In this document: positions 8,486 to 37,631 of the stretch, piece after piece
Position numbering within the stretch: position 1 is the first letter of the stretch
Layout of the letters: every line of letters begins with the position of its first letter
Assembly (NCBI RefSeq): GCF_004796535.1
Contig: NZ_SPHY01000012.1
Coordinates: 1-64,000 of the forward strand
Direction of reading: 5' to 3'
DNA length: 64,000 nucleotides
Origin: Sphingomonas flavalba
GTDB lineage: Bacteria; Pseudomonadota; Alphaproteobacteria; Sphingomonadales; Sphingomonadaceae
Made by a program: the position numbers and the translations under genes
The notes under the pieces: model-generated
What the model was told of the DNA's origin: nothing
Databases searched by the model: none
What the model saw: the letters and a program-made list of their open reading frames with translations, nothing else

Positions 8486-8569
8486 GCCACGAGCGGACGG
8501 CGTTCCGCCGTCGCCGCCGCAAGCCGGATCGTGGCGATGCCGTTCCTACTGCCCGCTAAAATGGTGCTA

Positions 8570-8701: not shown

Positions 8702-8835
8702 CGACGGTCGACGTTCGACGGCTGTGCGCCGTAGCTACGCGTTCTCTCGGCACGGCGTTCAGGCGGGAAGGCGCGGGCCAGCGCCAAGCCCGGAATCCGT
8801 GGCGTCGAGGCCGAACGGAAAGGCGTGACGACGGA

Positions 8836-13601: not shown

Positions 13602-13626
13602 GGGCGCGTTTCGCGACGCCCCCCAA

Positions 13627-14208
13627 TTAAAGCAGCGGTACGTGCGGGGCCGAATCGATCGGCAGGTGGCCGGCGCGGCGCGGGTCGTCGAAGGTTTCGA
13701 CCGCCCGCGCGATCGGCGCGAAGCCCTGGGCGCGGTAGAAGCCGAGCGCCGACGGGTGGTCTAGCGAGCAGGTCCGCACCCACAGCCGCTCCACGCCCGG
13801 CGCCCAGGCGCGGGTCATCGCCTGCGCCATCAGCCAGCGGCCGAGCCCGCCCCCGGCCAGTTCCGGCACCAGCCCGAAATAGACGATCTCGCAGGCGCCC
13901 GGCTGGCGGAAATCCAGTTCCAGCATGCCGACCTCGATGCCGTGGCGGTCGATCGCCGCGCAGACATGGACGGCGGGGTCGGCGAGGATCGCATCGAGCG
14001 CCGCGTCGGCGAGGATGAGGCGCGAGAACCACAGCCACGGCTCGCCGACCCGGCGGAACAGCGCGCGATAGCGTTCGCGCTCCGGCGCCGGCCAGCGGAC
14101 CAGCCGCAGCGGCGAATCCGGCATCGGCCGGGGGCGCGGCCGCTCGCGCATTTCGAGGGTCGTGACGACCGCGGCGACCTGGCCGGCGGGAAGTGGCGTC
14201 AGTCCCAC
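13627..14208 (-). CDS. GNAT family N-acetyltransferase
   Basis: A 193-aa GNAT protein. The acetyl-CoA binding motif A is in VPELAGGGLGRWLMAQA, followed by beta-strand-5 residues RLWVRTCSLDHPSALGFYRAQGF, a strong GNAT ending. The acceptor substrate is unknown. The GTG start at 14208 overlaps the hemF stop by 10 bp, indicating translational coupling in a trmL-hemF-GNAT operon. Internal ATGs near 14151 would give a shorter protein that still contains the whole domain. Confidence 0.85.
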   Translation of the reverse strand: MGLTPLPAGQVAAVVTTLEMRERPRPRPMPDSPLRLVRWPAPERERYRALFRRVGEPWLWFSRLILADAALDAILADPAVHVCAAIDRHGIEVGMLELDFRQPGACEIVYFGLVPELAGGGLGRWLMAQAMTRAWAPGVERLWVRTCSLDHPSALGFYRAQGFAPIARAVETFDDPRRAGHLPIDSAPHVPLL

Positions 14209-15041
14209 GTCGCCATCGGCGGCAGGCTCATCAGGATCGCGTCAACATTGCCGCCGGTCTTCAGCCCGAACAGCGTACCGCGATCGTAGAGCAGGTTGAA
14301 TTCGGCGTAGCGACCGCGCCAGGCGCGCTGGCGGGCAAGGTCGGCATCGTCCCAGGCGGTGCCCATTCGCCGCCGGACGATCGGCGGGAAGGCGGCGAGG
14401 AACGCTTCGCCGACCGCGCGGGTGAACGCGAAATTGGCGGTGAAATCGCCTTCGAGATGATCGTAGAATATGCCGCCGACGCCGCGGTGGACCTTGCGGT
14501 GGGGCAGGTAGAAATAGTCGTCCGCCCACGCCTTGAAACGCGGATAGTGATCGGGGTCGTGCGCGTCGCACGCCGCCTGCAGCGCGGCATGGAAGTCTGC
14601 GGTGTCTTTCGCATAGGGGATCGGCGGGTTGAGGTCTGCGCCGCCGCCGAACCAGCGCTTCGTCGTCGTCAGGAAGCGGGTGTTCATGTGGACCGCCGGC
14701 ACATGTGGATTCGCCATGTGGGCGACGAGGCTGATGCCGGTGGCGAAGAAGCGCGGATCGTCCGCCGCGCCGTGGATCGAGCGGGCGAATTCGCCATCGA
14801 AGGTGCCGCCGACGGTGGAGACGTTGACCCCGACCTTTTCGAACACCCGGCCCTTCATCAGCCCCTGCACGCCGCTGCCGCCGGGCGCGCCGGTCGAGTC
14901 AGTCCGGTCCCAGGGACGGTAGGCGAAGGCGGCGTCGCTGCCCGCTTCGCGCTCGATCGACTCGAATTCGGCGCAGATCCGGTCGCGGAGTTGCTCGAAC
15001 CAGGCGCGGGCGGTCTGCTGTTCGTCGTCAAGGGCGATCAT
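14199..15041 (-). CDS. hemF: Aerobic coproporphyrinogen III oxidase
   Basis: Oxygen-dependent haem-biosynthesis enzyme (280 aa) that decarboxylates coproporphyrinogen III to protoporphyrinogen IX. The signature WFGGGADLNPPIPYAKD, the VHMNTRFL segment and the YCDHYFYLPHR-like region (here WADDYFYLPHRKVHRGVGG) are present. The C-terminal RGRYAEFNLLYDRGTLFGL is diagnostic. The stop of trmL overlaps its start. Oxygen-dependent haem synthesis suits the aerobic respiratory genes around it. Confidence 0.96.
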   Translation of the reverse strand: MIALDDEQQTARAWFEQLRDRICAEFESIEREAGSDAAFAYRPWDRTDSTGAPGGSGVQGLMKGRVFEKVGVNVSTVGGTFDGEFARSIHGAADDPRFFATGISLVAHMANPHVPAVHMNTRFLTTTKRWFGGGADLNPPIPYAKDTADFHAALQAACDAHDPDHYPRFKAWADDYFYLPHRKVHRGVGGIFYDHLEGDFTANFAFTRAVGEAFLAAFPPIVRRRMGTAWDDADLARQRAWRGRYAEFNLLYDRGTLFGLKTGGNVDAILMSLPPMATWD

Positions 15042-15487
15042 TCCGGAAATCCTTCTGTCTGCCGTAACGCCTCGGCGAGGGCGATGCCCGCGGACACGGC
15101 GAGATTCAAGGATCGAAGGCCGGGCCGCATCGGAATCCGCACGCGCAGCGCCGCCGCGTCGTGGACCAGATCCGGCGCGCCGCCGCTTTCGGACCCCATC
15201 AGCACGATGTCGTCGGCGGCGAAGCGCGTGGCGTGCAGCGGAGTCGCGCCATGCGCGGTGAGCAGCACCAGCCGCCCCGGCTGCGCCCGGCGGAATGCCG
15301 CCCAGTCGGCATGGCGGGTCATGTCGGCATGGGCGAGATAGTCCATGCCCGCCCGCCGCATCCGCGCGTCGGAGAACACGAATCCACAGGGTTCGACGAT
15401 GTCGACCGGGACGCCGAAGCAGGCGCCGATGCGCAGAACCGCGCCGACGTTGCCGGCGATGTCGGGCTGATAAAGGGCGATACGCAT
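15038..15487 (-). CDS. trmL: tRNA (cytidine(34)-2'-O)-methyltransferase
   Basis: A small SPOUT-family enzyme (149 aa) that 2'-O-methylates the wobble base of tRNA-Leu. The N-terminal MRIALYQPDIAGNVGAVLRIG and the C-terminal knot motifs VLMGSESGGAPD and IPMRPGLRSLNLAVSAGIALAE define the TrmL/YibK group. It is the first gene of a short minus-strand operon with hemF and a GNAT protein. Length is exactly that of the minimal YibK type. Confidence 0.93.
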   Translation of the reverse strand: MRIALYQPDIAGNVGAVLRIGACFGVPVDIVEPCGFVFSDARMRRAGMDYLAHADMTRHADWAAFRRAQPGRLVLLTAHGATPLHATRFAADDIVLMGSESGGAPDLVHDAAALRVRIPMRPGLRSLNLAVSAGIALAEALRQTEGFPE

Positions 15488-15552
15488 CGGGAACCTTCGT
15501 GGCGTTGGGGTGCGGTTGCGGGGTGTAGCCGGTTAGCCGGTCAGAAATCTTG

Positions 15553-15581
15553 TTGGCAAATGCCTTGCGGCTTGGCTATCA
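15553..15581 (+). promoter_or_regulatory. Candidate sigma-70 promoter for petABC
   Basis: TTGGCA at 15553-15558, a 17-bp spacer and CTATCA at 15576-15581 lie about 125 bp upstream of petA. This sits in a 220-bp divergent gap with no other gene. The -35 is good and the -10 moderate. I infer that it drives the bc1 operon. Confidence 0.4.
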
Positions 15582-15707
15582 GGCCCGCGACTGCCGGGGG
15601 TACAGGCGGCGGCGTAACAAGATGCGGCAACGCGGTTGCCGTGTCTTCGGCCGTCCTCCTGCCATGGCAGCACGCGTGATAAGGGGTCATGGCGCAAGGG
15701 CTGGTGA

Positions 15708-16283
15708 ATGGCGACGCTTGAACAGATTGAACCGGGCGACATCGCCCAAGAAGACGGCGTCCGCCGACGCGACTTCCTGAATGTGGCGGCGGTCAGCTTC
15801 GCCGGGGTCGGCGCGGCCGCGGTCGTCGTGCCGCTGGTCACCCAGATGAACCCGTCCGCCGACGTGCTGGCGCAGGCGTCGACCGAAGTCGACATCTCCG
15901 CGATCCAGCCGGGGCAGGCGATCAAGACGGTGTTCCGCAAGCAGCCGCTGTTCGTGCGGCACCTGACGCCGAAGGAGATCGCCGAGGCCGACGCGGTGCC
16001 GGCGAGTTCGCTGCGCGACCCGCAGTCGCTCGAGGACCGGACCAAGCCGGGCAAGACCCAGTGGCTGATCACGATGGGTGTCTGCACCCACCTCGGCTGC
16101 GTGCCGCTCGGGGCCGGCGAGGGTGAGAATCGCGGTGAGTTCGGCGGGTATTTCTGCCCGTGCCACGGCTCGCACTACGACACTGCCGCCCGTATCCGCA
16201 AAGGCCCGGCGCCGAAGAATCTCGTCGTGCCCGATTACGTCTTCCGGTCGGACACCGTCGTCGAAGTTGGAGCAAAGGCATGA
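15708..16283 (+). CDS. petA: Ubiquinol-cytochrome c reductase Rieske iron-sulfur subunit
   Basis: Rieske protein (191 aa) of the cytochrome bc1 complex, which passes electrons from ubiquinol to cytochrome c1. An N-terminal twin-arginine-type anchor ([21 protein letters not shown]) is followed by a flexible hinge. The [2Fe-2S] cluster loops are CTHLGC and CPCHGS with the closing Pro loop. It overlaps petB by ATGA, so the three subunits are made from one message. Confidence 0.97.
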
Positions 16284-17581
16284 GCTTCCCTTGGGCCAAG
16301 CAATACGCCCCCACCAACCCGGTGATGAAGTGGGTCGATGACCGGCTGCCGCTTCCGCGTCTGGTCTACAACGCCGTCGGCGCCGGCTATCCGGTGCCGC
16401 GCAACCTGAATTATTTCTGGAACTTCGGTGTTCTCGCCGGGGTCGCGCTGACCATCCAGATCGTCACCGGCATCGTGCTGGCGATGCATTACGCCGCCAA
16501 TGCCGGTGTCGCGTTCGATTCCGTCGAGCACATCATGCGCGACGTCAATTCCGGCTGGCTGCTGCGCTACGCGCACGCCAACGGGGCGTCCTTCTTCTTC
16601 ATCGTCGTCTACATCCACATCTTCCGCGGGCTGTATTTCGGTTCGTACAAGGCGCCGCGCGAGATGGTCTGGCTGCTCGGCCTGGTCATCTTCCTGCTGA
16701 TGATGGCGACGGCGTTCATGGGCTATGTGCTGCCCTGGGGCCAGATGAGCTTCTGGGGCGCGCAGGTCATCACCGGCCTGTTCTCGGCAATCCCGCTGGT
16801 CGGCGAGACGATCCACACCTGGCTGCTCGGCGGGTTTGCGCCGGACAACGCCGCGCTCAACCGCTTCTTCTCGCTGCACTATCTGCTGCCGTTCGTGATC
16901 GCCGGCGTCATCGTCCTCCACATCTGGGCGCTGCACATTCCCGGGTCGAGCAACCCGACCGGCGTCGAGGTGAAGGACGAGCAGGACACGGTGCCGTTCC
17001 ACCCATATTACACCGCCAAGGACGGCTTCGGCGTCGCGATCTTCATGACGCTGTTCGCGATCATGCTGTTCTTCGCGCCGAACGCGCTCGGCCACCCGGA
17101 CAACTACATCCCGGCCAACCCGCTTTCGACGCCGGCGCACATCGTCCCCGAATGGTATTTCTGGCCGTTCTACGCGATCCTGCGCGCCTTCACGGTCGAC
17201 TTCATCCTGCCGGCCAAGCTGTGGGGCGTGCTGGCGATGTTCGCCGCGATCCTGCTGCTGTTCTTCCTGCCGTGGATCGACAAGTCGCCGGTTCGCTCGG
17301 CGACCTACCGGCCGCTGTACAAGAAGTTCTTCTGGGTGCTGGTCATCGACGTGCTGATCCTCGGCTATTGCGGCGGCGCGCCGGCGGAAGAGCCGTTCGT
17401 GATGCTGAGCCAGATCGCGTCGATCTACTATTTCGCGCATTTCCTGATCGTGCTGCCGTTCGTCGCCAGCATCGAGCGGACGCTGCCGTTGCCCGCTTCG
17501 ATCACGGAGGCGGTGCTCGCCAAGCACGGGACCACGGTATCTGACGCCGACGGCACTGCCGCCGCAGCGCCGGCTGAATAA
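16280..17581 (+). CDS. petB: Cytochrome b of the bc1 complex
   Basis: Membrane subunit (433 aa, eight helices) holding haems bL and bH and both quinone sites. Visible signatures are [21 protein letters not shown], the Qo-site [14 protein letters not shown] (PEWY motif) and the helix-B and helix-D histidines around [12 protein letters not shown] and [21 protein letters not shown] start at ATG 16280, overlapping the petA stop. Upstream in-frame codons belong to petA in another frame. The last 20 residues are an Ala-rich tail. Confidence 0.97.
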
Positions 17582-25499: not shown

Positions 25500-26780
25500 A
25501 TGAATGCGCAGCAGCCCGATCGGGACGGTCAGTTCCTGCCCAGAAGGCGCGGCGGCGCGGTCGGCTGGCGGCTGTGGTCGGCGCTGGTTGCGGCGCCGTT
25601 CCACCGCATGCTCGACCGCATCGACGCCGGGCTGGAAGCGGGTGCGATCGAAGCCTGGCTGCCCGACGGCTCGTACCGCATCCTCGGCGGCCGCGCGCCC
25701 GGCCCGGTGGCGGAGGTGCGGCTGAACAGCTGGCGGGCGCTGTTGCGGCTGGCCGGCGACGGGTCGTTCGGCTGGTACCGCGCCTGGGACAGGGGAGAAT
25801 GGGCCAGCCCCGATCCGGTGCCGCTGTTCGCGCTGTTCATGCGCAACGCCCCGTCGCTCGACCGGGTGGCGCGGGCGCGGGGGCTTGGCCGATTGTTCGG
25901 CCGCCTGCGCCACTGGCTGCGCCGCAACAGCCGGAACGGATCGCGCCGCAACATCGCCTTCCACTACGACTTGGGCAACGCGTTCTACGCCGCCTGGCTC
26001 GACGAGACGATGACCTATTCGGCGGCGCTGTTCCAGGAGCCGATCCGCCCGGACGAGGAACTGGCCTATGCCCAGTTGAACAAGGTCCGCGCGCTGCTCG
26101 ACCGGCTGGACCTGAAACCGGACCAGCATCTGCTGGAGATCGGCTGCGGCTGGGGCACGCTGGCCGAGATCGCGGCCGACGAATATGGCGTCGGCGTCAC
26201 CGGCATCACCCTGTCGGCGGAGCAGCGGGCGCATGCGCTGGCGCTCAACCGCGCCAACGTCAACGCTGGGCGGGTGCGGATCGAGCTGACCGATTATCGT
26301 GACGTCGCCGGGACGTTCGACGCGATCGCCAGCGTGGAGATGGTGGAGGCGGTCGGCCAGGCTTATTGGGGCACCTATGCCGAGGCGCTGGCCCGCTGCC
26401 TGAAGCCGGGCGGGCGCGCCGCGATCCAGTTCATCGCGATCGACGACGCGATTTTCGACCGCTACGCCACCGGGGCGGACTTCATCCAGACCTGCATCTT
26501 TCCCGGCGGCATGCTGCTGTCGGAAAGCGCGTTCCGGGCGCTGTGCGAGCAGGCCGGCCTTGCCTGGCGCGATCGTCGCGGCTTCGGCCTGCACTATGCG
26601 GAAACGCTGCGCCGCTGGCGCGAGCGCTTCGACGCGGCGATCGAGGCGGGGCGGCTGCCGCCCGGCTTCGACGAACGCTTCGTGCGGCTGTGGCGTTATT
26701 ATCTGATGTATTGCGAAGGGGGCTTTCGCGGCGGCGGCATCGACGTCGCGCAGGTGACGCTGGTCAAGGAGGGGGGATGA
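25500..26780 (+). CDS. Cyclopropane-fatty-acyl-phospholipid synthase family methyltransferase
   Basis: A 426-aa CFA-synthase-like enzyme acting on membrane phospholipid acyl chains with SAM. The N-terminal half (to about residue 150) is the family's lipid-binding region, ending in RNIAFHYDLGNAFYAAWLDE with the TMTYSAALF motif. The SAM site is LLEIGCGWGTLAEIAADEYG. The active-site segment QFIAIDDAIFDRYATGADFI and the C-terminal RRWRERFD helix follow. It may make cyclopropane, methyl-branched or related fatty acids. It overlaps the next gene by 4 bp. Confidence 0.9.
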   Translation: MNAQQPDRDGQFLPRRRGGAVGWRLWSALVAAPFHRMLDRIDAGLEAGAIEAWLPDGSYRILGGRAPGPVAEVRLNSWRALLRLAGDGSFGWYRAWDRGEWASPDPVPLFALFMRNAPSLDRVARARGLGRLFGRLRHWLRRNSRNGSRRNIAFHYDLGNAFYAAWLDETMTYSAALFQEPIRPDEELAYAQLNKVRALLDRLDLKPDQHLLEIGCGWGTLAEIAADEYGVGVTGITLSAEQRAHALALNRANVNAGRVRIELTDYRDVAGTFDAIASVEMVEAVGQAYWGTYAEALARCLKPGGRAAIQFIAIDDAIFDRYATGADFIQTCIFPGGMLLSESAFRALCEQAGLAWRDRRGFGLHYAETLRRWRERFDAAIEAGRLPPGFDERFVRLWRYYLMYCEGGFRGGGIDVAQVTLVKEGG

Positions 26781-27970
26781 TGCGGACCTGGCTGGGGGCG
26801 GCGCTGGCCGCCGGGCTGCTGGTGCTGCCGGCGGCGGGGATGGCGAAGGACGGCGTCCGGCTTACGCCAGACAAGGCCGCGAAGCTGCGCAACGCCGGCG
26901 CGGAGGTGCTGTTCTGGAGCCAGGCGGAGCGCGACGCCAACTTCCCGAACATGGAGCGGCTGTTCCCCGGCGATACGGTGGCGGCGTCGGACCACCCGCG
27001 CCCGTTGCCGGACGGGAAGCCGCTCGCCCTGGGGCCGGGGGACCCGGCCGGGGCGTATATGGTGGCGAACAACGTCGCCGGGCTGCTGGTCCTCCAGCAT
27101 GGCAAGGTCCGGCTGGAGCGCTATGCGCGCGGCTTTTCGCGCACCGGGCGCTGGACCAGCTTCTCTGTCGCCAAGTCGCTGACCTCGACGCTGGTCGGCG
27201 CGGCGATCGCCGACGGATATATCGCTTCGGTCGACGACCCGGTCAGCCGCTACATCCCGGAGTTGACCGGTGCCGGCTATGACGGCGTGACCATCCGCCA
27301 GGTGCTGACGATGACGTCGGGCGTGCGCTGGAACGAGGACTATACCGACCCGAAATCGGATGTCGCGCGGATGCTGACCGAGCCGCCGCCGGCCGGGGTT
27401 GACCAGACCGTCGCTTATATGCGCGCCCTGCCGCGCGAGGCGGAGCCGGGGACGAAATGGGTCTACAAGACCGGCGAGACCAACCTGATCGGCGTGCTGG
27501 TCGCGCGCGCCACGGGTAAATCGCTCGCCGCCTATGCGGCCGAGAAGATCTGGCAGCCCTATGGCATGGAACAGCCGCTATTCTGGATGGTCGACAGCGG
27601 TGGCGGCAATATCGGCGGCTGCTGCCTGTCCGCGTCGCTGCGCGACTATGCAAGGATCGGCCAGTTCGTGCTCGACGGCGGCGTCGCCGCGGGGCGGAAA
27701 GTGGTGGCGGACGGGTGGTTCGCCGCCGCGACCCATGGCCAGGCCGATACCGGCGCGCCCGGCTACGGCTATGGCTATCAATGGTGGACCGAACCCGACG
27801 CCAGCTTCGATGCGCGCGGCATCTTCGGCCAGATGATCCATATCGACCCGGCGCGCGGGCTGGTGGTGGCGATGGTCAGCGCGTGGCCGAGGGCGACCGA
27901 CCCGGCGTTGAGCGAAGCGCGCCGGGTGTTCGTCACCCGGATCAGCGCGGCGCTGGACGCTGGCCGCTGA
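26777..27970 (+). CDS. Exported serine hydrolase, beta-lactamase/NylB-like fold
   Basis: A 397-aa protein with an N-terminal signal peptide (MMRTWLGAALAAGLLVLPAAGMA). The nucleophile tetrad SVAK in WTSFSVAKSLTSTLVG is the SxxK of class C beta-lactamases and related esterases. The segment WVYKTGETNLIGVL supplies the Tyr region, and GGNIGGCCLSASLRDYARIG is characteristic of the NylB-like (6-aminohexanoate-dimer hydrolase) branch. Function as esterase, amidase or peptidase is open. It overlaps the CFA-like gene at its start and the convergent fecR gene by 29 bp at its end. Confidence 0.87.
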   Translation: MMRTWLGAALAAGLLVLPAAGMAKDGVRLTPDKAAKLRNAGAEVLFWSQAERDANFPNMERLFPGDTVAASDHPRPLPDGKPLALGPGDPAGAYMVANNVAGLLVLQHGKVRLERYARGFSRTGRWTSFSVAKSLTSTLVGAAIADGYIASVDDPVSRYIPELTGAGYDGVTIRQVLTMTSGVRWNEDYTDPKSDVARMLTEPPPAGVDQTVAYMRALPREAEPGTKWVYKTGETNLIGVLVARATGKSLAAYAAEKIWQPYGMEQPLFWMVDSGGGNIGGCCLSASLRDYARIGQFVLDGGVAAGRKVVADGWFAAATHGQADTGAPGYGYGYQWWTEPDASFDARGIFGQMIHIDPARGLVVAMVSAWPRATDPALSEARRVFVTRISAALDAGR

Positions 27971-28916
27971 GCCCGCCGGCGCGCGCCTTGCTGATCGAGA
28001 TCATGCGCGGATCGTGCACCAGCTCGCGTAGTGCAGAGGTGTCGCCCTGATCGATCACGCCGTAGATCGGCAGGGCGGCGTTGCGCGGATCGGTGACGAC
28101 GACCGTGTCGTGGGTATAGCGGTTGACCGTCGCTACCACCTGCGCCAGCGGCTCGCCCCGGAACACCAGAACCCCGCGCGTCCAGGCGGTCGCCTGGTCG
28201 ACATTGGCTTCCTTCGTCTGCGAAATGAAGCCGACGCTTTCGCCGCCGTCGTTCAGCATGCCGAAGCGGACCTGTTCGCCCTTGCGCGCGCTCTTGACCA
28301 CGGTGTCGCCGCGGGCGCCGTCGACCGACGGGCCGCGCAGCGCGATGCGGACGACGCCGCTGACCACTGTCACCGCCGCCTGATGCGGCGCGACCCTTAC
28401 GTCGAAGGCGGTGCCGACCGCGCGAATCTCGCCATGCGCGACCTCGACGATGAACGGCCGGCGGCTGTCATGGGCGACGTTGAACAGCGCTTCGCCTTCA
28501 GTCAGGCGGATGCGGCGTTCGGCCGGGGTGTAGGCGAGGGCGACGCGGCTGGCGCCGCCCAGCGTCACCACCGATCCGTCGTTCAGCCGTAGCACCCGCC
28601 GTTCGGCGCGGTCAGCGGCGTATTCGGCGCCGCGCGGCGCTGGGGCGCTGACGTCCCGCGTCGACAGCCAGGCGCCGGCGCCGACCGCCCCCACCAGCAC
28701 CGCCGCCAGGCCGGCTGCCAGCGGCCAGCGGCGCCGGGCAGCCGGTTCGGCGGCATGCTCGCCGGGATGCTGGAACCGGCCGAGCCACGCCCAGAACGCC
28801 TCCGCCTCGGCGCGGTCGTCGGGGTGAAGCGAATCCGCCCGCCCGGCGAGGACGCCGTCGAACACCGCGTCCGCGCGCGGGCCCAAGCGGTTGACTGGCG
28901 GTTCGTCGCGCATCAT
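27942..28916 (-). CDS. FecR family anti-sigma factor
   Basis: A 324-aa transmembrane regulator of surface signalling. The short cytoplasmic N-terminus contains the Trp-rich helix AEAEAFWAWLGRFQHP that binds the sigma factor. One membrane helix lies at residues 64-84. The periplasmic FecR domain (about 110-215) includes DGSVVTLGGASRVAL and GTAFDVRV. The C-terminal STN-like region (245-310, GVLVFRGEPLAQVVATVNRYT) contacts the receptor's signalling domain. It overlaps the upstream sigma gene by 4 bp and forms with it and the receptor at 29626 a FecI/FecR/FecA-type circuit. Confidence 0.92.
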   Translation of the reverse strand: MMRDEPPVNRLGPRADAVFDGVLAGRADSLHPDDRAEAEAFWAWLGRFQHPGEHAAEPAARRRWPLAAGLAAVLVGAVGAGAWLSTRDVSAPAPRGAEYAADRAERRVLRLNDGSVVTLGGASRVALAYTPAERRIRLTEGEALFNVAHDSRRPFIVEVAHGEIRAVGTAFDVRVAPHQAAVTVVSGVVRIALRGPSVDGARGDTVVKSARKGEQVRFGMLNDGGESVGFISQTKEANVDQATAWTRGVLVFRGEPLAQVVATVNRYTHDTVVVTDPRNAALPIYGVIDQGDTSALRELVHDPRMISISKARAGGLSGQRPAPR

Positions 28917-29455
28917 CGGTCCGTTCGCAGGGCGGCGAGCCGCTGATAGAGATGGGCGACGGCGTGGACCAGATGCTTCTGGACCATGCGGGGGCTGATC
29001 CGCAGCGCCTTGGCGATGTCCGCCGTCGACATTTCGTCGAAGCGGCGCATGACGAACACCCGCCGGCAGGGCGGCGACAGTTCGGCCAGCGCCGCGTCGA
29101 GCAGATGCTGCAGATCATCCAGGGTGCGGCCGTCCTCCTGCGCGGCGCGGACCGGCGGCGCCAGCGCTTCGTCGAACGGCTCGGCGGGGGCCGGGCGGCG
29201 GCCGCGATCGGCGATCAGGTTGGCGGCGATGCGGAACAGATAGGCTTGCGGCCGTTCGACCGGATGGGTGCGCCCGGCCTGGATCAGCCGTACGCAGGCT
29301 TCCTGCACCAGATCCTCCGCCTCCGTCGGATCGCTGACCCGCCGCGCGACGAAGGCGCGCAGCGCGGCGCGGCTGGACTCCAGCAACTCGGCCTCGATGC
29401 CGCTTGCACGGAGTGAATCGATCCGTTGCTGTGGCCTGCTCGCCATGCCTTGCAT
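28913..29455 (-). CDS. ECF sigma factor, FecI-like
   Basis: A 180-aa group IV sigma factor. Region 2 is at about residues 25-95 (ALRAFVARRVSDPTEAEDLVQEACVRLI, with QAYLFRIAANLIADRGRR). Region 4 is at 112-175 (LAELSPPCRRVFVMRRFDEMSTADIAKALRIS helix-turn-helix, then VQKHLVHAVAHL). This is the FecI subgroup. It is transcribed away from the STN receptor that it probably controls, and its activity should depend on FecR at 27942-28916. Confidence 0.92.
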   Translation of the reverse strand: MQGMASRPQQRIDSLRASGIEAELLESSRAALRAFVARRVSDPTEAEDLVQEACVRLIQAGRTHPVERPQAYLFRIAANLIADRGRRPAPAEPFDEALAPPVRAAQEDGRTLDDLQHLLDAALAELSPPCRRVFVMRRFDEMSTADIAKALRISPRMVQKHLVHAVAHLYQRLAALRTDR

Positions 29456-29625
29456 CCCCTGTCGTCAATGATGACGCTGGAGCCAGGGCGAAGCGAACTG
29501 TTTTTCGGCAACAGCGAAAATAAATCGCGCCACCGGGCGGCACGGCGGTTCGTAAACGCGCCCGCCGAACGTCATATCTAGACCGGGCCAAGGGGAAAGG
29601 GCCGGGCAGACGAAGGGGGAATCGC
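29456..29625. promoter_or_regulatory. Divergent control region between the ECF sigma gene and STN receptor
   Basis: This 170-bp region must hold the receptor promoter and the sigma-gene promoter. There is an AT-richer core around 29490-29530 (TGTTTTTCGG, GAAAATAAATCGC). The receptor start is preceded by GAAGGGGGA 5 bp upstream of its GTG. I cannot pick out a canonical FecI-type promoter with confidence. A conserved pair shared with other sigma targets would be needed to define it. Confidence 0.4.
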
Positions 29626-32600
29626 GTGAAATCAGGATATTTGCTGTCGGCCGCCCTGTGCGCCATCGCTTCTCCGGCCCTGTCGGCCGAGGCGCGCTAT
29701 GCCATCGACCTGCCGGCGCAGACGCTCGATGCTTCGCTGTATCAGGTCGCGCGGGCGACCGGCGTCCAACTGATCTTCACCGACGAACAGATCACCCACC
29801 TGCACGCGCCGCGCGTCGCCGGACGCTATACGCTGGCGCAGGCGCTGAGCGCGGTGCTTGCCCGCAGCGGCTATACCTATCGCGTCACCGGCGAGAACAG
29901 TGTCCGCATCATCCGCGCCGACACGCCGCGGGTGACGCCGATTGCCTATCGGCAGGATGGCGAACCGGCGCCGACGGCGGCCGTTCCCGCCGCCGCTGAC
30001 GCGCCGGCGCGCAACTCCACGCAGGAAGCGATCGCCGCGACCACCGGTGACGCGGATGCCGCCGCCGACATCGTCGTCGTCGGGTCGCGGATCGCCGGCA
30101 GCAAGGTGACGGCGGCGCTGCCGGTCACCATCGTCGACGCGCAGTCGATCTCGGCGACCGGCTCGCTGTCGGGCGACGAGCTGTTCCGCTCGATCCCGCA
30201 GATGGGCGACGTCAGCTTCAACAGCGCCTATCTGCCGAACAGCTCCAATTCGGCGCGCGGCGATGTCGGCTCGGTCAACCTGCGCAACCTGGGCGTCGGC
30301 AACACGCTGGTGCTGCTGAACGGCCGCCGGGTGGTCAACCACCCGACCAGCCGCGCCGACGACAATCTGGTGCCGACGCTGACCTACAACACCAACGCGA
30401 TTCCGGTGTTCGGGCTCGAACGGCTGGAGGTGCTGCGCGACGGCGCGGCGGCGATCTACGGGTCGGACGCCGTCGCCGGCGTGGTCAACACCGTGCTGCG
30501 CACCAACTATAACGGGGTAATGGCCGAGACCCAGGTCGGCTATGCCGAAGACACCAGCATGGTCGAGCTCAACGCCAATCTGCTGGCCGGCACCGATCTG
30601 GGCGGGCGCGGCAACGTCACGCTGTTCGCCAGCTACGACCACCGCACCTCGCTCGACGCGCGGGACCAGGATTATACCGCGTCGGCCGACAAGCGGCCGC
30701 TGTTCGACGGCACCCCGTTCGAGGGGCTGAACGGACTGGACGGGCGCAGCACGATCACCCCGTGGGGTTCGTTCCAGACCTATGGCAACGTCCGGGTGCG
30801 GCAGGGCGCGACCAACCTGACCAACGCGTCCGGCCAGTTCCATATCCAGCCGGACAGCAACAGCGGCTGCCAGACGGCGTTGGCGGGCGGGCTGTGCATC
30901 GACGACGGCACGATCAGCGGCGCCGCCGACCGCAACCTGCGCTTCGACGCGGCCCACGCGTTCAACACCAGCGTGATCCCGGCGGTCAAGCGGCTGAACC
31001 TGTTCCTGAACGGCCATTACGACCTGACCGACAACCTCGAATTCTTCGGCGAGGCCGGGTATTATCGCGCCACCACCCGCAGCATCCAGGCGTCGACCGG
31101 CACGCTGAGTTCCGGGCCGCTCGTCATCCCGACGAGCAACTATTACAACCCGTTCGGTCCGACGACATTGCCGGACGGATCGCCCAACCCCAACCGCCTG
31201 CCGGGCATCGACGCGCCGGCGGACGGGCAGGCGATCACCCTCAGCAGCTATAATTTCGCCGATGTCGGCCCCAATGTCGTGAACGTGAAGAACGAGCAGT
31301 TCCGCCTGCTCGGCGGCCTCCGCTTCGAGGCGCTCGGTTTCAAGTGGGAAAGCGCGCTGGTCTATTCGGAGGCGACGGTCCGCGACCGGTCCGACGGCCT
31401 CAGCCAGACGCTGCTCCAGAAGCAGTTGGCGCTGGCCACGCCGGACGCCTACAACCCGTTCAGCGGCGGCACGATTGCCGATCCGGCCGGCGCCGACGCG
31501 ACGCCGAGCCGCCAGGCGGCGATCGACGCGATCAAGATCACCACCACCCGCTTCAACAAGGCGACGCTGGCGATGGCCGACCTGCGCGGCAGCCGCGCTG
31601 ATCTGCTGACCCTGCCGGGCGGCGATGTCGGCTTTGCCTTTGGCGGCGAGATTCGGCGCGAGACGCAGATCGACAACCGCGACCCGCATGTCGACGGCAC
31701 GATCCAGTTCGTTGACGCGGTCAGCGGCTTCGTCAACGCCAGCGACCTGATCGGGTCCAGCCCGTCGCCGGACACCCGCGGCCGCCGCACCGTTGCCGCC
31801 GCCTATGCCGAGCTGGCGATCCCGCTGGTGTCGCCGGACATGGGGGTGCCGCTCGTCTACCGTGCCGAATTGCAGGTCGCCGGGCGCTACGAGCATTACA
31901 GCGACGTCGGGTCGGTGGCGAAGCCGAAGGTTGCCGGCGCGTGGGACATCGTCCCGGGCCTCAGGCTGCGCGGCTCCTATGCCCAGGGCTTCAAGGCGCC
32001 GAACCTGGAGCAGATCAACGCGACGGTGGTCACCCGGTCCAACACCCGCACCGACTATATCCGCTGCGAGGCGGACCTGCGCGCCGGGCGGATCGCCAGC
32101 TTCGCCGATTGCAGCCAGGGCTTCGCCACCTCCGCCCAGCGCTCCGGCAACCCGGACCTGAAGCCGGAAACCTCGACCACCTGGGGCGCCGGCGTTGTGC
32201 TGGAGCCGCGCTTCCTGGAGGACCGGTTGGGCCGGATGACCTTCACCGTCGATTACTGGAACATCCGGCAGAAGGGCATCGTCGGCCTGTTCGGCGAAGG
32301 CAACGCGCTGATCAACGACTATCTGGAGCGGGTTGGCGGCGGTGAGGACGCCAACGTCATCCGCGCCGCTCCGACCGCCGACGACATCGCGCTGTTCGCC
32401 GGCACCGGCCTGACCCCGGCCGGGCGGGTGCTGTTCGTCCGCGACAAATATGTGAACCTGCTGCCGCAGACGGTGTCGGGCGTCGACTTCGGCTTCTTCT
32501 GGAAGCTGCCCGATTTCGGCATCGGCACGTTCCAGCTCAGCGCCAACGCCGCCTATCTGCGCAAGTTCTTCCTGCAGCCGTCGCCGCCGATCCAGACGCT

Positions 32601-33003
32601 GATCGACGCCCGCGCCGCCGGCACGATCAACCCCGGCACGATCATCGCCGAGGCCGGCGACCGCATCCGACAGAGCGGCAAGCCGCGGTGGAAGGGCTCC
32701 GGCTCGCTGACCTGGACCTATGACCGGTTCCAGATCGGCGCCTACACCCAATATACCGGGTCGGTGGAGGATACCGGCCTGCTCGACCCGGCCGGCGTGC
32801 CGTGGGTCATCGACGATCAGATGACCTTCAACCTTTATGCGCAAGTCGAGGTCGGCGGCGACAGCACCGGCCGCTACCGGTTGCGGATCGGCGTGCGCAA
32901 CCTGACCGACGCGAAGCCGCCGCTGTCGTCGGACGGCTATCTCGCCAGCCTCTACAACCCCTATGCGCGTTACTGGTACGCCAATTTCCGTGCGTCCTTC
33001 TAA
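29626..33003 (+). CDS. TonB-dependent receptor with STN signalling domain
   Basis: A 1125-aa FecA/FpvA-type receptor. It has a signal peptide (MKSGYLLSAALCAIASPALSA), an STN domain at residues about 24-97 (YAIDLPAQTLDASLYQVARATG then GRYTLAQALSAVLARSGYTY), a linker with a TonB-box-like DIVVVGSRI (about 148-156), a plug (165-275, LVLLNGRRVVNHP and LEVLRDGAAAIYGSDAVAGV) and a large barrel ending RYWYANFRASF. The plug resembles the long sphingomonad/xanthomonad receptors for carbohydrates, peptides or other organics rather than siderophores. The start is a GTG with a strong ribosome site. The STN domain and the divergent sigma/FecR pair make it a signalling receptor. Confidence 0.94.
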   Translation: MKSGYLLSAALCAIASPALSAEARYAIDLPAQTLDASLYQVARATGVQLIFTDEQITHLHAPRVAGRYTLAQALSAVLARSGYTYRVTGENSVRIIRADTPRVTPIAYRQDGEPAPTAAVPAAADAPARNSTQEAIAATTGDADAAADIVVVGSRIAGSKVTAALPVTIVDAQSISATGSLSGDELFRSIPQMGDVSFNSAYLPNSSNSARGDVGSVNLRNLGVGNTLVLLNGRRVVNHPTSRADDNLVPTLTYNTNAIPVFGLERLEVLRDGAAAIYGSDAVAGVVNTVLRTNYNGVMAETQVGYAEDTSMVELNANLLAGTDLGGRGNVTLFASYDHRTSLDARDQDYTASADKRPLFDGTPFEGLNGLDGRSTITPWGSFQTYGNVRVRQGATNLTNASGQFHIQPDSNSGCQTALAGGLCIDDGTISGAADRNLRFDAAHAFNTSVIPAVKRLNLFLNGHYDLTDNLEFFGEAGYYRATTRSIQASTGTLSSGPLVIPTSNYYNPFGPTTLPDGSPNPNRLPGIDAPADGQAITLSSYNFADVGPNVVNVKNEQFRLLGGLRFEALGFKWESALVYSEATVRDRSDGLSQTLLQKQLALATPDAYNPFSGGTIADPAGADATPSRQAAIDAIKITTTRFNKATLAMADLRGSRADLLTLPGGDVGFAFGGEIRRETQIDNRDPHVDGTIQFVDAVSGFVNASDLIGSSPSPDTRGRRTVAAAYAELAIPLVSPDMGVPLVYRAELQVAGRYEHYSDVGSVAKPKVAGAWDIVPGLRLRGSYAQGFKAPNLEQINATVVTRSNTRTDYIRCEADLRAGRIASFADCSQGFATSAQRSGNPDLKPETSTTWGAGVVLEPRFLEDRLGRMTFTVDYWNIRQKGIVGLFGEGNALINDYLERVGGGEDANVIRAAPTADDIALFAGTGLTPAGRVLFVRDKYVNLLPQTVSGVDFGFFWKLPDFGIGTFQLSANAAYLRKFFLQPSPPIQTLIDARAAGTINPGTIIAEAGDRIRQSGKPRWKGSGSLTWTYDRFQIGAYTQYTGSVEDTGLLDPAGVPWVIDDQMTFNLYAQVEVGGDSTGRYRLRIGVRNLTDAKPPLSSDGYLASLYNPYARYWYANFRASF

Positions 33004-33016
33004 GCGGGGCGCCGGG

Positions 33017-34744
33017 GTGCGGCGCGGTTTCCGCTGCCTTGCCGGGCTGCTGGCGATCACGCTGGCGGTCCCGGCCGGGCTCGTCGCCCAGACCGGGCCG
33101 TCGGGCGGCGACATCGTCGGCTATGGCGAGATCCACCATCCGACGATCGGCCGCGACGGCATGGTGGTCAGCCAGAACGCCATCGCCACCCGCGTTGGCG
33201 TCGAAATACTGCGCAAGGGCGGCAACGCGGTCGACGCGGCGGTGGCCACCGCCTTCGCGCTGGCGGTGACGCTGCCGCGCGCCGGCAATATCGGCGGCGG
33301 CGGCTATATGCTGATCCATATGGCGGCGACGCCCGACCGCCCGGCCCAGACGATCGCGATCGATTATTATGGCCAGGCGCCGCATGCGACGACGCCGGAC
33401 CTGCTGCTCGACGCCGCCGGCCGCTTCGACCGGGAAAAGGGCTATTCGATGAAGGGCGTCGCCATCCCCGGCACCGTCGCCGGGCTGTGGGAGGCGCACC
33501 AGCGGTTCGGCAAGCTGCGCTGGGGCACGCTGATCGCCCCGGCGATCGCGCTCGCCCGCAACGGCGTGGTGCTGAGCGACGACGAAGCGAAGGCGACCGC
33601 CGAGCAGGCGAAGGCGATGGCCGACGATCCCGGCGCGATGGCCGCGTTCTTCAAACCCGGCGGCGCGCCTTACCAGCCGGGCGAGTTGTTCCGCCAGCCC
33701 GATCTGGCCTGGTCGCTGAAGCAGATCGCGGCGCGCGGCCGCGACGGATTCTACAAGGGGCCGGTGGCCGAACGGCTGGTCGCCGGGATCAAGGCCGGCG
33801 GCGGCATCATCGATGCGGCCGACCTCGCCGATTACCGTGCGATCGTCAGCCAGCCGATCTGGTCCGACTATCGTGGGCAGCGCATCGCCTACATGCCGCC
33901 GACCGCATCGGGCGTCACCGTCGCCGAGGCGATGAACATCCTGGAACATTTCCCACTGGCCGAAACCGGCTGGGGCAGCGCCGCGACGCTGCACACGGTG
34001 GCGGAGGCGGTGAAGATCGCCTGGTCCGACCGCCGGCTGGTCGGCGGCGCCCCCGACTGGAACACGCCGACCACCGGCCTGGCCAGCAAGGGCTTTGCCG
34101 CCGAGCGTGCGAAGCTGATCCAGCCCGACAAGACGCTTGGCGCGGCAACGCTGCCGGACGGCAATCCTTATCCGTACGAAAGCCGCGACACGACGCATTT
34201 CTCCGTCGCCGATGCGGCGGGCAATGCGGTGACCAACACCTATACCCTGTCCGCCTCCTATGGCGCGCATGTGGTGGCGCCGGGCACCGGCTTCCTGCTC
34301 AACAACTCGTTCGGCAACCTGGCCTGGGGGCTGCGCGGCGCCGGGCGCGAGGCGACGAAGCCGGTGCCGGGCAAGCGGGTCGGATCGACGATCACCCCGA
34401 TCATCGTGTTCCGCGACGACAAGCCCTGGCTGCTGACCGGCACGCCCGGCGGCGGCTATATCATCGCGACGATGGTGCAGCTGCTGTCCAACGTCATCGA
34501 CCACCGCCTGAACGTCGCGGAAGCGGCGCAGCGCCCGCGCATCAACCAGAGCGGGCCGGGCGCGCCGATCGAGCTTGAACCCGGTTTTTCGCCCGACATC
34601 GTACCGCTGCTGGAGGCAAGAGGGCATGCGGTGAAGTCCTCGGCGACGATGGGCAGCACCCAGTCGATCATGGTGACGAACGGGCTGTTCCTGGGCGCCG
34701 CCGACACCCGCCGCCCGGATGCGCTGGCGCTTGGCGTGCGCTAG
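33017..34744 (+). CDS. ggt: Gamma-glutamyltransferase, exported
   Basis: A 575-aa Ntn-hydrolase that removes or transfers gamma-glutamyl groups from glutathione and related peptides in the periplasm. A signal peptide (FRCLAGLLAITLAVPAGLVAQ) precedes GRDGMVVSQNAIATRVG. The autocatalytic cleavage site and catalytic Thr are at DTTHFSVADAAGNAV. The oxyanion/gamma-glutamyl site is TGTPGGGYIIATM. I start at GTG 33017, 13 bp after the receptor stop, with AGCGGGG upstream. An in-frame ATG at 32963 lies inside the receptor gene. Tight spacing implies co-transcription with the STN receptor. Confidence 0.93.
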   Translation: MRRGFRCLAGLLAITLAVPAGLVAQTGPSGGDIVGYGEIHHPTIGRDGMVVSQNAIATRVGVEILRKGGNAVDAAVATAFALAVTLPRAGNIGGGGYMLIHMAATPDRPAQTIAIDYYGQAPHATTPDLLLDAAGRFDREKGYSMKGVAIPGTVAGLWEAHQRFGKLRWGTLIAPAIALARNGVVLSDDEAKATAEQAKAMADDPGAMAAFFKPGGAPYQPGELFRQPDLAWSLKQIAARGRDGFYKGPVAERLVAGIKAGGGIIDAADLADYRAIVSQPIWSDYRGQRIAYMPPTASGVTVAEAMNILEHFPLAETGWGSAATLHTVAEAVKIAWSDRRLVGGAPDWNTPTTGLASKGFAAERAKLIQPDKTLGAATLPDGNPYPYESRDTTHFSVADAAGNAVTNTYTLSASYGAHVVAPGTGFLLNNSFGNLAWGLRGAGREATKPVPGKRVGSTITPIIVFRDDKPWLLTGTPGGGYIIATMVQLLSNVIDHRLNVAEAAQRPRINQSGPGAPIELEPGFSPDIVPLLEARGHAVKSSATMGSTQSIMVTNGLFLGAADTRRPDALALGVR

Positions 34745-34804
34745 GAAGGATCGGCGGCGCGGAGCGGATTCGGCCTCCGGCGCCGCCGCAACGAAGGAGC
34801 TGTG

Positions 34805-36253
34805 ATGACCCGTCTTGCCCTGTCCGCCTGCCTGCTGATCGGCGCCTCTCCGCTGGCCGCCGCGCCGCTCCCCCCGGCCGAGAACGCCGCGATCACCGCC
34901 GATGTCGACGGGCGAGCCGGCGCTCTTGCCGACACCGCCAAGGCGATCTGGACCTATGCCGAGGTTGGCTATCAGGAGGTGAAAAGCTCTGCCCTGCTCC
35001 AGCAGGATCTGCGCAAGGCCGGCTTCACCGTCACCGCTGGGGTGGCGGGCATGCCGACCGCCTTCGTCGCCATCTTCAAGAACGGGGCCGGGCCGGTCAT
35101 CGCCATCCTCGCCGAGTTCGACGCGCTGCCCGGTCTCGCCCAGACGACCGATCCGGTGGCGACGCCGATCGCCGGGCAGGCGGCGGGCCATGGTTGCGGC
35201 CACAATGTGTTCGGCGCTGCATCGATTACCGCGGCGATGGCGGTCAAGGACTGGATGGTCCGCAACAAGGTGGCGGGCGAGCTGCGCGTCTACGGCACCC
35301 CGGCGGAGGAAGGCGGATCGGGCAAGGTCTACATGGTCCGATCGGGCCTGTTCGACGATGTTGCGGCGACGCTGCACTGGCACCCCGGCGACGGCAACGC
35401 GGTCAGCGTCGGCAAGAGCCAGGCGAATATCAGCGGCAAGTTCCGCTTCCGCGGCGTCTCCGCCCACGCCTCTGCCGCGCCGGACAAGGGACGGTCGGCG
35501 CTCGACGGCGTCGAGATCATGGATGTCGCGACCAATTTCCTGCGCGAGCACGTTCCGCAGGGCACGCGCATCCACTACGTCATCACCGAAGGCGGCAAGG
35601 CGCCCAACGTCGTCCCCGATTTCGCCGAGGTCTATTACTACGTCCGGCACACCGACCCGGCGATCGTCAAGGCGGTGTGGCAGCGGGTGAACGACGCGGC
35701 ACAGGGCGCCGCCCTCGCCTCCGGCACCAAGGTGGAGGTGGAGATCACCGGCGGCGTCTATTCGATGCTGGGCAACGACACGCTGGCGGCGGTGATGCAG
35801 CGCAATCTGGAGGCGGTCGGCGGCCCGGCATGGACGGCGGCGGAGCGCGGCTGGGCGGAAAAGCTTCAGCCGTCGCTGCCGACGAAGAAGGATCTGGCGT
35901 CGGCGGCGCAGATCCAGCCGCTCCACCGCCAGGATTCCGGCGGCTCGACCGACGTGTCGGACATCAGCTGGGTGTCGCCGACCGTCGGCCTGTCGACCGC
36001 GACCTGGGTGCCCGGAACCCCGGCGCATAGCTGGCAGGCCGTCGCTGCCAGCGGCGGGTCGATCGGCGCAAAAGGCGGCGTTGTCGCCGCCAAGGCGCTG
36101 GCGTTGAGCGCCGCCGAACTGTTCCGCAGCCCGGACACGCTCGCCGCCGCCCGCGCCGAGCTGGACAAGGCGCGCGGCGCCGATTTCAAATATCAGGCGA
36201 TGGTCGGCGACCGTACCCCGCCGCTCGACTACCGCAAGCCGGCCGGAAATTAG
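34805..36253 (+). CDS. Exported M20D-type amidohydrolase
   Basis: A 482-aa metallo-amidohydrolase of the AbgB/aminoacylase group (M20D). A signal peptide (MTRLALSACLLIGASPLAAAP) is followed by the metal-binding loop GQAAGHGCGHNVFG, the catalytic EE in YGTPAEEGGSGKVYM and the later HWHPGDGNA. The dimerisation domain is about 190-320. Members cut N-acyl or p-aminobenzoyl-glutamate-type amides. ATG 34805 is 5 bp after AGGAG. It follows ggt by 60 bp and should act on the same imported compounds, as inferred from the layout. Confidence 0.9.
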   Translation: MTRLALSACLLIGASPLAAAPLPPAENAAITADVDGRAGALADTAKAIWTYAEVGYQEVKSSALLQQDLRKAGFTVTAGVAGMPTAFVAIFKNGAGPVIAILAEFDALPGLAQTTDPVATPIAGQAAGHGCGHNVFGAASITAAMAVKDWMVRNKVAGELRVYGTPAEEGGSGKVYMVRSGLFDDVAATLHWHPGDGNAVSVGKSQANISGKFRFRGVSAHASAAPDKGRSALDGVEIMDVATNFLREHVPQGTRIHYVITEGGKAPNVVPDFAEVYYYVRHTDPAIVKAVWQRVNDAAQGAALASGTKVEVEITGGVYSMLGNDTLAAVMQRNLEAVGGPAWTAAERGWAEKLQPSLPTKKDLASAAQIQPLHRQDSGGSTDVSDISWVSPTVGLSTATWVPGTPAHSWQAVAASGGSIGAKGGVVAAKALALSAAELFRSPDTLAAARAELDKARGADFKYQAMVGDRTPPLDYRKPAGN

Positions 36254-36284
36254 GCGCGCGGAACAAAGGCCGCCCCGGCTGGGC

Positions 36285-37631
36285 TTACTTCGCGGGCGCC
36301 TGCGCTTCTGCCGCGCTGACTCGCCAGATGCGATCGCCGACGTCGTCGGCGACAAGCAGCGCGCCGGTCTTGTCGACGATGACGCCGACCGGCCGGCCCT
36401 GGGCGCGGCCCTTGGCATCGAGGAAGCCGGTCAGCAGGTCGACGGGCTTTACGCCCTTCACCGGATAGCCGTTGTCGCCGAACGGGACGTAGACGACCTT
36501 GTAGCCGGACGGCGGCTTGCGGTTCCATGATCCGTGCTCGCCGACGAAGGCGCCGTTGGCGAAGCGCGACCCGAGCTTGGCGTCGGTGGCGAAGGCCAGG
36601 CCGAGCGCGGCGACGTGCGCGCCGAGCGCGTAGTCCGGGCGTTTGGCATATTCCTGCAGGTCCGGCCTCTCCGGCTGTACCCGCCGATCGAGATAGCCGC
36701 CCCAATAGGTGTGGGGCCAGCCGTAGAAAGCAGCGAATTCGACACGGGTCAGATAGTCGGGCGACAGGTCGCCGCCCATCATGTCGCGTTCGTTGACGAC
36801 GGTCCACAGCGCCCCGGTCTTCGGCTCGTAGGCGAGGCCGACCGGGTTGCGCAGGCCGGAGGCGAAGATGTTGTAGCGGCCGCTGGCGATGTCGACCTGC
36901 AGAATATTGGCGCGGTGGGTTTCCAGCTCCAGCCCCTTTTCGCCGATATTGCTGGCCGATCCGACGGCGACGAACAGCGATTTGCCGTCCGGCGCCGGGA
37001 TCAGGTTGCGCGACCAGTGGTTGCCGCCGCCGGGCAGGCTGGCGATCTTCTGCGGCTTGGCGGTGATCTTGGTCTGGCCGACCTTGAACGGGTAGGCGAC
37101 GATCGCGTCGGTGTTGCCGATGAACAGCCGGTCGCCGACCAGCGCCATGCCGAACGGCGAGTTGAGGCCGGTCAGCAGCACCGAGCGCGCCTCCGGCCGC
37201 CCGTCGCCGTCGGCGTCGCGCAGCAGGGTGATGCGGTTGGCGGAAGGGACGGCGGCGCCGGCGCGGCCGAGCAGCAGATTCATGACGAAGCCGGTGACGC
37301 CGCCGCCCTTGCGCGGCGGCGAATTGGTTTCGGCGACCAGCACGTCGCCGTTGGGCAGCAGCGTCATCCAGCGCGGATGGTCAAGGTCGCCGGCATATTC
37401 GCTGACCGTCAGTCCTGCCGCCGCCACCGGCCGGGCATTGCCCTGCCAGCCGATCGGCTTGGCGATATTGACTGTTGGGATCAGCTCGTTGCGCGGCGGC
37501 GAGATGGTCGGGCGCTGGCCGACGACCGCGTCGAACGCCAGCTTGACGTTGTCGCGGCGGCTGAGCAGCGCGACCGCGGCGGCCGCCGCCACGATCACGA
37601 TCAGGATGAAGATCAGCAGCCTGCGGCTCAT
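36285..37631 (-). CDS. PQQ-type sorbosone/glucose dehydrogenase-like beta-propeller protein
   Basis: A 448-aa protein with an N-terminal membrane anchor (LLIFILIVIVAAAAAVALL) and a periplasmic six-bladed propeller of the L-sorbosone/soluble-glucose dehydrogenase family. Characteristic segments are HPRWMTLLPNGDVLVAE, LNSPFGMALVGDRLFIGNTD, GGGNHWSRNLIPAPDGKSLF and FASGLRNPVGLAYEP. Many relatives bind PQQ, but no PQQ synthesis genes are in the window and the true substrate is unknown. It converges with the M20D gene with only a 31-bp gap. Confidence 0.8.
   Translation of the reverse strand: MSRRLLIFILIVIVAAAAAVALLSRRDNVKLAFDAVVGQRPTISPPRNELIPTVNIAKPIGWQGNARPVAAAGLTVSEYAGDLDHPRWMTLLPNGDVLVAETNSPPRKGGGVTGFVMNLLLGRAGAAVPSANRITLLRDADGDGRPEARSVLLTGLNSPFGMALVGDRLFIGNTDAIVAYPFKVGQTKITAKPQKIASLPGGGNHWSRNLIPAPDGKSLFVAVGSASNIGEKGLELETHRANILQVDIASGRYNIFASGLRNPVGLAYEPKTGALWTVVNERDMMGGDLSPDYLTRVEFAAFYGWPHTYWGGYLDRRVQPERPDLQEYAKRPDYALGAHVAALGLAFATDAKLGSRFANGAFVGEHGSWNRKPPSGYKVVYVPFGDNGYPVKGVKPVDLLTGFLDAKGRAQGRPVGVIVDKTGALLVADDVGDRIWRVSAAEAQAPAK

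Follow-up and report, generated by a model that had tools for sequence, protein, structure and literature searches.

A surface-signalling TonB receptor locus with an altered gamma-glutamyltransferase-family enzyme in Sphingomonas flavalba

The five genes of the locus

The stretch of DNA analysed here, hereafter the window, comprises 64,000 nucleotides of Sphingomonas flavalba (assembly GCF_004796535.1, contig NZ_SPHY01000012.1, positions 1 to 64,000). It carries a locus in which the genes for an extracytoplasmic function (ECF) sigma factor and a FecR-like anti-sigma factor stand divergent from the gene for a TonB-dependent receptor with an STN domain, which is followed by genes for a gamma-glutamyltransferase (GGT)-family enzyme and an M20D amidohydrolase. 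The five genes are open at the following coordinates.

27942 to 28916, minus strand: FecR-like anti-sigma factor, 324 residues, one membrane span as judged from the sequence (Pfam PF04773, 71.8 bits)
28913 to 29455, minus strand: FecI-type ECF sigma factor, 180 residues (Sigma70_r2 and r4_2 over cut-off; TIGR02937, 81 bits)
29456 to 29625, no strand: divergent intergenic region between sigma factor and receptor
29626 to 33003, plus strand: STN-domain TonB-dependent receptor, 1125 residues (Pfam STN 34.5, Plug 56.4, barrel 114 bits)
29764 to 29919, plus strand: STN signalling domain of the receptor, the sole Pfam STN match in the genome
33017 to 34744, plus strand: GGT-fold Ntn hydrolase with a signal-like start and an altered donor pocket, 575 residues (PF01019, G_glu_transpept, 481 bits)
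34805 to 36253, plus strand: M20D amidohydrolase, AbgB-like, with a signal-like start, 482 residues (TIGR01891, 255 bits, cut-off 154; Pfam M20 and M20_dimer over their cut-offs)

This order of genes, described in an earlier note on the same DNA, was confirmed by the Pfam and NCBIfam matches, with all Pfam scores above their cut-offs, and by the coordinates. The genes fecI and fecR overlap by 4 bases, and 13 bases separate the receptor stop from the GTG start of the GGT gene at 33017; with the in-frame ATG at 32963 as its start, the two genes would overlap. The ATG of the M20D gene (34805) lies 60 bases past the GGT stop; in between is a G+C-rich hairpin that lacks a T run and that 54 of 200 shuffles equalled or exceeded in folding. 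The receptor, the GGT and the M20D protein begin with signal-peptide-like stretches, as judged by reading the sequence, and at residue 148 of the receptor there is a DIVVVG motif that we take to be TonB-box-like. A scan of 27900 to 36400 against Rfam gave no match. The flanking genes look unrelated: the upstream one encodes a serine hydrolase of the beta-lactamase type, the downstream one a protein resembling sorbosone dehydrogenase.

The genome (3.07 Mb in 35 contigs) has two FecR matches, one of them that of the window, three GGT genes and 58 TonB receptors that pass the Pfam cut-off. Because there are so many such receptors, a GGT gene beside an arbitrary one means little, and only a link to the clade of the window's receptor was counted.

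The receptor clade and its GGT-family partner

Relatives of the receptor were searched in 249 genomes of the family (E <= 1e-150), giving 45 matches in 42 genomes, the window's own included. Neighbourhoods were taken for 40 of the 44 other family matches, those of genomes G140, G078, G107 and G134 being left out. Further receptor loci came from a second collection (nine named loci) and from a class-wide sample of 385 genomes, where E <= 1e-200 gave four matches, including the window's own and one already known, and thus two additional loci. Genes in unannotated loci were called with a custom script; five receptor loci (L048, L056, L057, L064 and L093) have less than 6 kb on one side, and the absence of a partner there is weak evidence.

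A quick tree of 50 receptors groups that of the window with others into a set of 21 rows (support 89). Of the 12 family receptors closest to it, 9 have a GGT gene within 8 kb, versus none of the 29 other fetched family receptors, and so does one of the two class-wide receptors (in L119 the receptor is followed by the GGT; L118 is without one). Over the 21-row group plus these two, which were placed by identity only, the count is 10/23. The chance of a nearby GGT gene is about 1.7% per receptor, as estimated from 32 GGT genes in 11 genomes, and the formal probability of the pairing is 2e-14 when kinship is ignored; the nine family pairings represent about three receptor lineages. The tightest pairing, L033, shows an M14 peptidase gene, the receptor (54% identity), 40 bases and the GGT (70%). 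These counts support the GGT as a recurrent partner within the sub-clade of the window's receptor. No published account of such a pairing was found in a literature search of partial coverage, which is weak evidence of novelty. The locus L041 (G236:C5, 6181 to 18243) has an STN receptor between two different GGT-family genes, both without Asp433, as well as FecIR and a beta-propeller amidohydrolase of 976 residues.

The GGT of the window is 41% identical to the canonical, periplasmic enzyme of E. coli, with which it shares the catalytic threonine (in a TTH motif), Ser462 and the oxyanion glycine pair. It differs by the replacements R114Y, N411S, Q430S and D433N, by Thr for Ser463 and by a shorter lid stretch (21 versus 27 residues). 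By fold and catalytic threonine it belongs to the GGT family, but with Tyr and Asn in place of Arg114 and Asp433 it lacks the donor pocket of a gamma-glutamyltransferase. The codons concerned were placed by the alignment.

33368 to 33370, plus strand: Tyr118 (E. coli Arg114)
34190 to 34192, plus strand: catalytic Thr392, kept (E. coli Thr391)
34307 to 34318, plus strand: Ser431 to Asn434, where Ser and Asn replace E. coli Gln430 and Asp433

In the E. coli enzyme Arg114 contacts the alpha-carboxylate of the donor, and Asp433 and its neighbours, including Gln430, contact the alpha-amino group (PMC8062742). Activity is undetectable in the variants R114L and R114D, and R109F of the B. licheniformis GGT, the nearest tested change to the Tyr of the window, is likewise inactive (PMC8062742). 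The same source also reports changes with milder effects: B. licheniformis R109S keeps 85% of its activity, and some extremophile GGTs have Ser at this position; E. coli D433N retains 82% of the hydrolysis of ordinary donors and B. subtilis D445A 40%. Since some single contact losses leave much hydrolysis, they need not change the substrate. An ordinary gamma-glutamyl hydrolase, acting on glutathione conjugates or on gamma-glutamyl peptides in free form, would agree with these values, with the retained catalytic Thr, Ser462 and glycine pair, and with a TIGR00066 gamma-glutamyltransferase equivalog score above the NCBIfam cut-off (444 bits against 358). Such a role is nevertheless improbable, given that four contact residues are replaced together, that the lid is shortened, that an aromatic residue at the Arg position abolishes activity in B. 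licheniformis, and that the genome has another GGT, on contig C31 (L105), that keeps Arg114 and Asp433. Taken together, the pocket changes argue for an altered substrate, without proving it. Because the usual donor contacts are replaced, ordinary gamma-glutamyl substrates appear less likely and are disfavoured for this enzyme, which weakens the suggestion of the earlier note that the ligand is glutathione-derived or a free gamma-glutamyl peptide.

The change at position 433 was followed across other GGTs. A GGT was considered linked when lying within 3.3 kb of a receptor of the window clade, a limit chosen after the data were seen, and the unlinked GGT loci were selected for their resemblance to the proteins of the window. 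Asp433 is absent from all 11 linked GGTs (10/10 in the family plus the class-wide case L119), and is kept in 31 of the 37 other tabulated GGTs; those lacking it are 4/24 in the family tree and 2/13 class loci. One fused gene call, L077_4, which keeps Asp433, was excluded from the GGT tree and from these 37. All 11 class GGTs of comparable similarity to that of the window (43–48%) keep both Arg114 and Asp433. Arg114 is replaced in the window, L033, L040 to L043 and L119, and kept in L037 to L039. As for the other two GGTs of this genome, the C31 protein has Glu at both position 411 and position 430, like the B. subtilis enzyme, and the third, on C3 (L104), is altered too, with no receptor of the window clade beside it.

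Surface signalling and the M20D amidohydrolase

The window locus resembles FecI/FecR/FecA in that ECF sigma factor, FecR and STN receptor are adjacent, with divergent genes, which is the gene-level arrangement of surface signalling. Among the 52 receptors an STN domain was found in five, and these five, but no others, have FecR within 3 kb; the STN and FecR profiles used were made from members of the set, so that hits on those members arise by construction while their lack elsewhere does not. The home-made profile also detects a second STN in the genome, beside the other FecR (L107), whereas Pfam finds only that of the window, and in L066, L101 and L119 a FecR lies further off, beside a different STN-bearing receptor. 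Two near-identical Hyphomonas loci are among the five, with amidohydrolases present and GGT absent. Within 8 kb of 50 receptors, regulators similar to DctB/DctD are found in 27 cases and LysR regulators in nine, so that 36/50 have one or the other. Since STN and FecR occur with the same five receptors, STN and FecIR together act as a single interchangeable sensor unit in a line of receptors whose other members rely on different regulators. The view that surface signalling is tied here to amide-bond hydrolases, put forward in the earlier note, is supported, and the receptor clade differs from FecI/FecR/FecA in its links to amide hydrolases and to SDF symporters.

The FecI/FecR/STN receptors of known function belong mainly to iron systems (see also PMC11637429), and the locus could be an iron circuit, in which a ferric siderophore with glutamyl or dicarboxyl amides would be imported and the enzymes would break the ligand to free the iron. 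We consider this unlikely. In the region from 29456 to 29625 the best Fur box has 10 of 19 matches to an E. coli-type consensus, with shuffles mostly reaching 9–10, so that no Fur box of this type stands above chance; six ECF promoter patterns also gave no match between sigma factor and receptor. Among the 18 scanned proteins of the 60 in the window there is no iron-transport family, a fur-family gene 6 kb away aside, nor is there one among the scanned neighbours of the receptor kin, which are a minority of all their neighbours. Moreover, 36/50 receptors have DctBD or LysR regulators instead. A PepSY-type gene was seen about 18 kb from the receptor in one Pseudoalteromonas stretch.

Lasso isopeptidases are S9-like enzymes, and we know of no isopeptidase of the GGT family. 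Their loci resemble that of the window in having a TonB transporter, a sigma/anti-sigma pair and a hydrolase of isopeptide amides (PMC9266682), and differ from it in that the hydrolases of the window are GGT-fold and M20D. This resemblance suggests another explanation, namely that the GGT-fold enzyme cleaves gamma-glutamyl isopeptide bonds inside folded or cross-linked peptides; the loss of both alpha-group contacts would suit a glutamyl residue within a chain. Nevertheless, the lasso B2 family (transglutaminase-like) has no match in this genome, so that an endogenous lasso peptide was rejected, and it matches in 2/9 genomes with a GGT-linked receptor, which would require a peptide made by others; we give this scavenging only a slim chance.

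The M20D protein is 39% identical to E. coli AbgB over 438 residues, versus 27% to AbgA, and keeps the metal-site motifs (GHGCGHN, PAEEGG, HWHPG and AHSWQ are present), which places it with the AbgB type; among solved structures its best sequence match is HmrA. In contrast to AbgB, which lacks a signal-like start, it has one, and no AbgA gene is adjacent, with no second M20 protein among the scanned neighbours. Uptake of p-aminobenzoyl-glutamate through AbgT was rejected, as AbgT is absent from the genome. Single in-frame stops in 27 of 83 M20D matches gave no sign of recoding in the five genomes checked: one alignment overruns the C-terminal stop and four end at the C terminus.

The 11 closest M20D homologues of the family, picked by similarity to the window protein, were fetched with their loci. 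In 5/11 (L082, L086, L088, L089 and L090) the order M14, TonB receptor, M20D stands beside FecR and a sigma factor, and in four of these five an STN receptor is near. From these five loci it follows that M20D recurs as a partner in FecIR-TonB loci, though with a different receptor clade (about 26% identity). With an M14 protein of about 930 residues, this arrangement is a second kind of surface-signalled peptidase locus; the M14 proteins of L082, L084, L086 and L088 to L090 are 51–62% identical to the one preceding the L033 receptor. Near the receptor of L043 there is another M20 peptidase, and in L087 the M20D gene lies directly behind an SDF symporter. A separate case is L084 (G216:C1:468000-487500, 7632 to 17481), with the order LysR, M20D, CuyA (D-cysteate sulfo-lyase), CuyB (cysteate racemase), TonB receptor and M14, which may serve the uptake of a compound containing cysteate. 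Cysteate was rejected as the ligand of the window locus, as cuyA/cuyB were seen beside this one M20D relative, the other 10 M20D loci not having been searched for them.

Candidate ligands of the receptor clade

The neighbours of the receptor kin offer pointers to the ligand. SDF symporters lie within 8 kb of 36/50 receptors; of those tested, one scored over the DctA cut-off (667 versus 513 bits) and one under those of DctA and GltP. M14 proteins also occur, and the one tested gave an AstE/AspA-like match. Amidohydrolases related to one from Pseudoalteromonas are found in 10 receptor loci, and those tested match PRK09061, below its cut-off; we take them to be D-aminoacylase-like. Genes similar to D-amino-acid dehydrogenases are near 8/50 receptors (one tested, 332 bits against a cut-off of 383), and 4/9 named loci carry a DgcN homologue (47%) at a distance of 8.7 kb from the receptor (one tested, 445 bits, below the cut-off of 480). 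The gene dgcN is one of those for the breakdown of D-acidic amino acids (PMC12363236, PMC10845958).

On two Pseudoalteromonas plasmids a receptor 39% identical to that of the window is followed, in one gene run, by the amidohydrolase, an M14 carboxypeptidase, NhaC, dgcR and dgcN, with dgcA also seen and dgcR-dgcN about 6–7 kb from the receptor; unlike the window, the stretch shown has neither FecIR nor GGT. In these loci (NZ_CP091443.1, 106633 to 118675, L134; NZ_CP032091.1, L133) the receptor set directly adjoins dgcR-dgcN(-dgcA), as though D-glutamate catabolism were equipped with a dedicated set for import across the outer membrane. A PF00144 protein occurs in a Sphingopyxis dgcN run (L099); in the window, a PF00144 serine hydrolase of the beta-lactamase/PBP type (26774 to 27970) converges on fecR with an overlap of 29 bases.

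A further explanation draws on the reported acylase activities of GGT variants. The E. coli D433N variant loses transpeptidation and gains glutaryl-cephalosporin acylase activity, that is, hydrolysis of glutaryl amides, and Asn at this position is likewise seen among class IV cephalosporin acylases (PMC8062742); a Pseudomonas GGT with the corresponding mutation was used to hydrolyse glutaryl and sulfobutanoyl amides (PMC11421214). Thus, the window enzyme could be a broad acylase of this kind, stripping a dicarboxylic cap such as glutaryl or succinyl off a peptide or an amine, with the dicarboxylate rather than glutamate as the prize. The symporter over the DctA cut-off and the DctB/DctD-like regulators would fit such a role; the dgcN and D-amino-acid-dehydrogenase-like neighbours, pointing to glutamate or other D-amino acids, and the AbgB-like M20D do not, and the window enzyme differs from the class IV acylases in that its Arg114 equivalent is replaced as well and its gene lies directly behind a TonB receptor. 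We consider it rather unlikely.

Our tentative preference, plausible and short of an even chance, is that the locus serves the surface-signalled scavenging of an N-blocked glutamyl amide. From what is known of these families, the compound would be bound by the STN receptor, which through FecR would free the sigma factor for transcription of the receptor, GGT and M20D genes, and would then be imported by the receptor in a TonB-dependent manner. The residues and the neighbouring genes suggest that the altered GGT would cut a gamma-type amide of a glutamyl group that has no free alpha-amino group, and that the resulting N-acyl glutamate would pass to the AbgB-like M20D enzyme, which would free glutamate; this would probably enter the cell through one of the symporters of the genome. 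A pocket without the alpha-amino contacts would suit a glutamyl group with a blocked alpha-amino group, and the release of N-acyl glutamate by gamma-amide cleavage would explain the pairing of a GGT with an AbgB-type enzyme. Plausible sources are peptidoglycan stem peptides (gamma-D-Glu with an acylated alpha-amino group), other D-Glu peptides and folate breakdown products. The N-acyl-glutamate alternative of the earlier note fits better than its glutathione one, in view of the M20D closer to AbgB and of the SDF symporters, and in six cases also dgcN, that accompany receptor kin.

Several observations weigh against the scavenging of a blocked glutamyl amide. Without Arg114 the substrate of the GGT may not necessarily be glutamyl. 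A GGT is near the receptor in none of the nine named loci, among them the two Hyphomonas loci with STN and FecIR, and M20D stands beside the window receptor clade in 1/52 cases, the window only; the conservation of ggt and M20D beside the receptor, which the earlier note named as a check, held for the GGT among close relatives and failed for M20D. Besides, the E. coli PGH enzyme requires AbgA as well as AbgB and is inactive on a range of dipeptides (PMC5082436). The window locus has no symporter, the six SDF symporters of the genome lying elsewhere. The gene dgcN occurs in 4/52 receptor loci and 0/41 family loci, never together with a GGT, and DgcA in 0/41 family loci. When all GGTs within 8 kb of a receptor are taken, Asp433 is absent in 11/14; the three that keep it (L037_0, L038_2 and L039_13) are 5.3–6.7 kb off and on the opposite strand. 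The GGT tree needs only two changes at 433, so the linked enzymes are not independent. Finally, the GGTs directly downstream of TonB receptors of another clade (881–913 residues) keep Arg114 and Asp433 in 5/5 cases, from five genomes (L078, L080, L081, L108 and L109); as these receptor-linked GGTs keep the pocket, the change at Asp433 goes with the window receptor clade and not with TonB receptors generally.

A broader proposal, which is possible but doubtful, is that this receptor clade, present in sphingomonads, Hyphomonas and Pseudoalteromonas, imports blocked glutamyl or D-glutamyl compounds such as peptidoglycan stem peptides, that it more than once gained GGT-fold enzymes rebuilt as internal gamma-glutamyl amidases, and that FecIR with STN serves it as an exchangeable sensor. 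The locus itself argues against the habitual reading of surface-signalling receptors as iron systems and of GGT genes as glutathione enzymes, and it draws attention to a group of GGT-fold enzymes that are altered in nature, with a short list of candidate substrates. If the ligand is indeed a D-glutamyl cell-wall peptide, an outer-membrane entry route would be added to D-glutamate recycling, and D-glutamyl peptides would become a ligand class for surface signalling.

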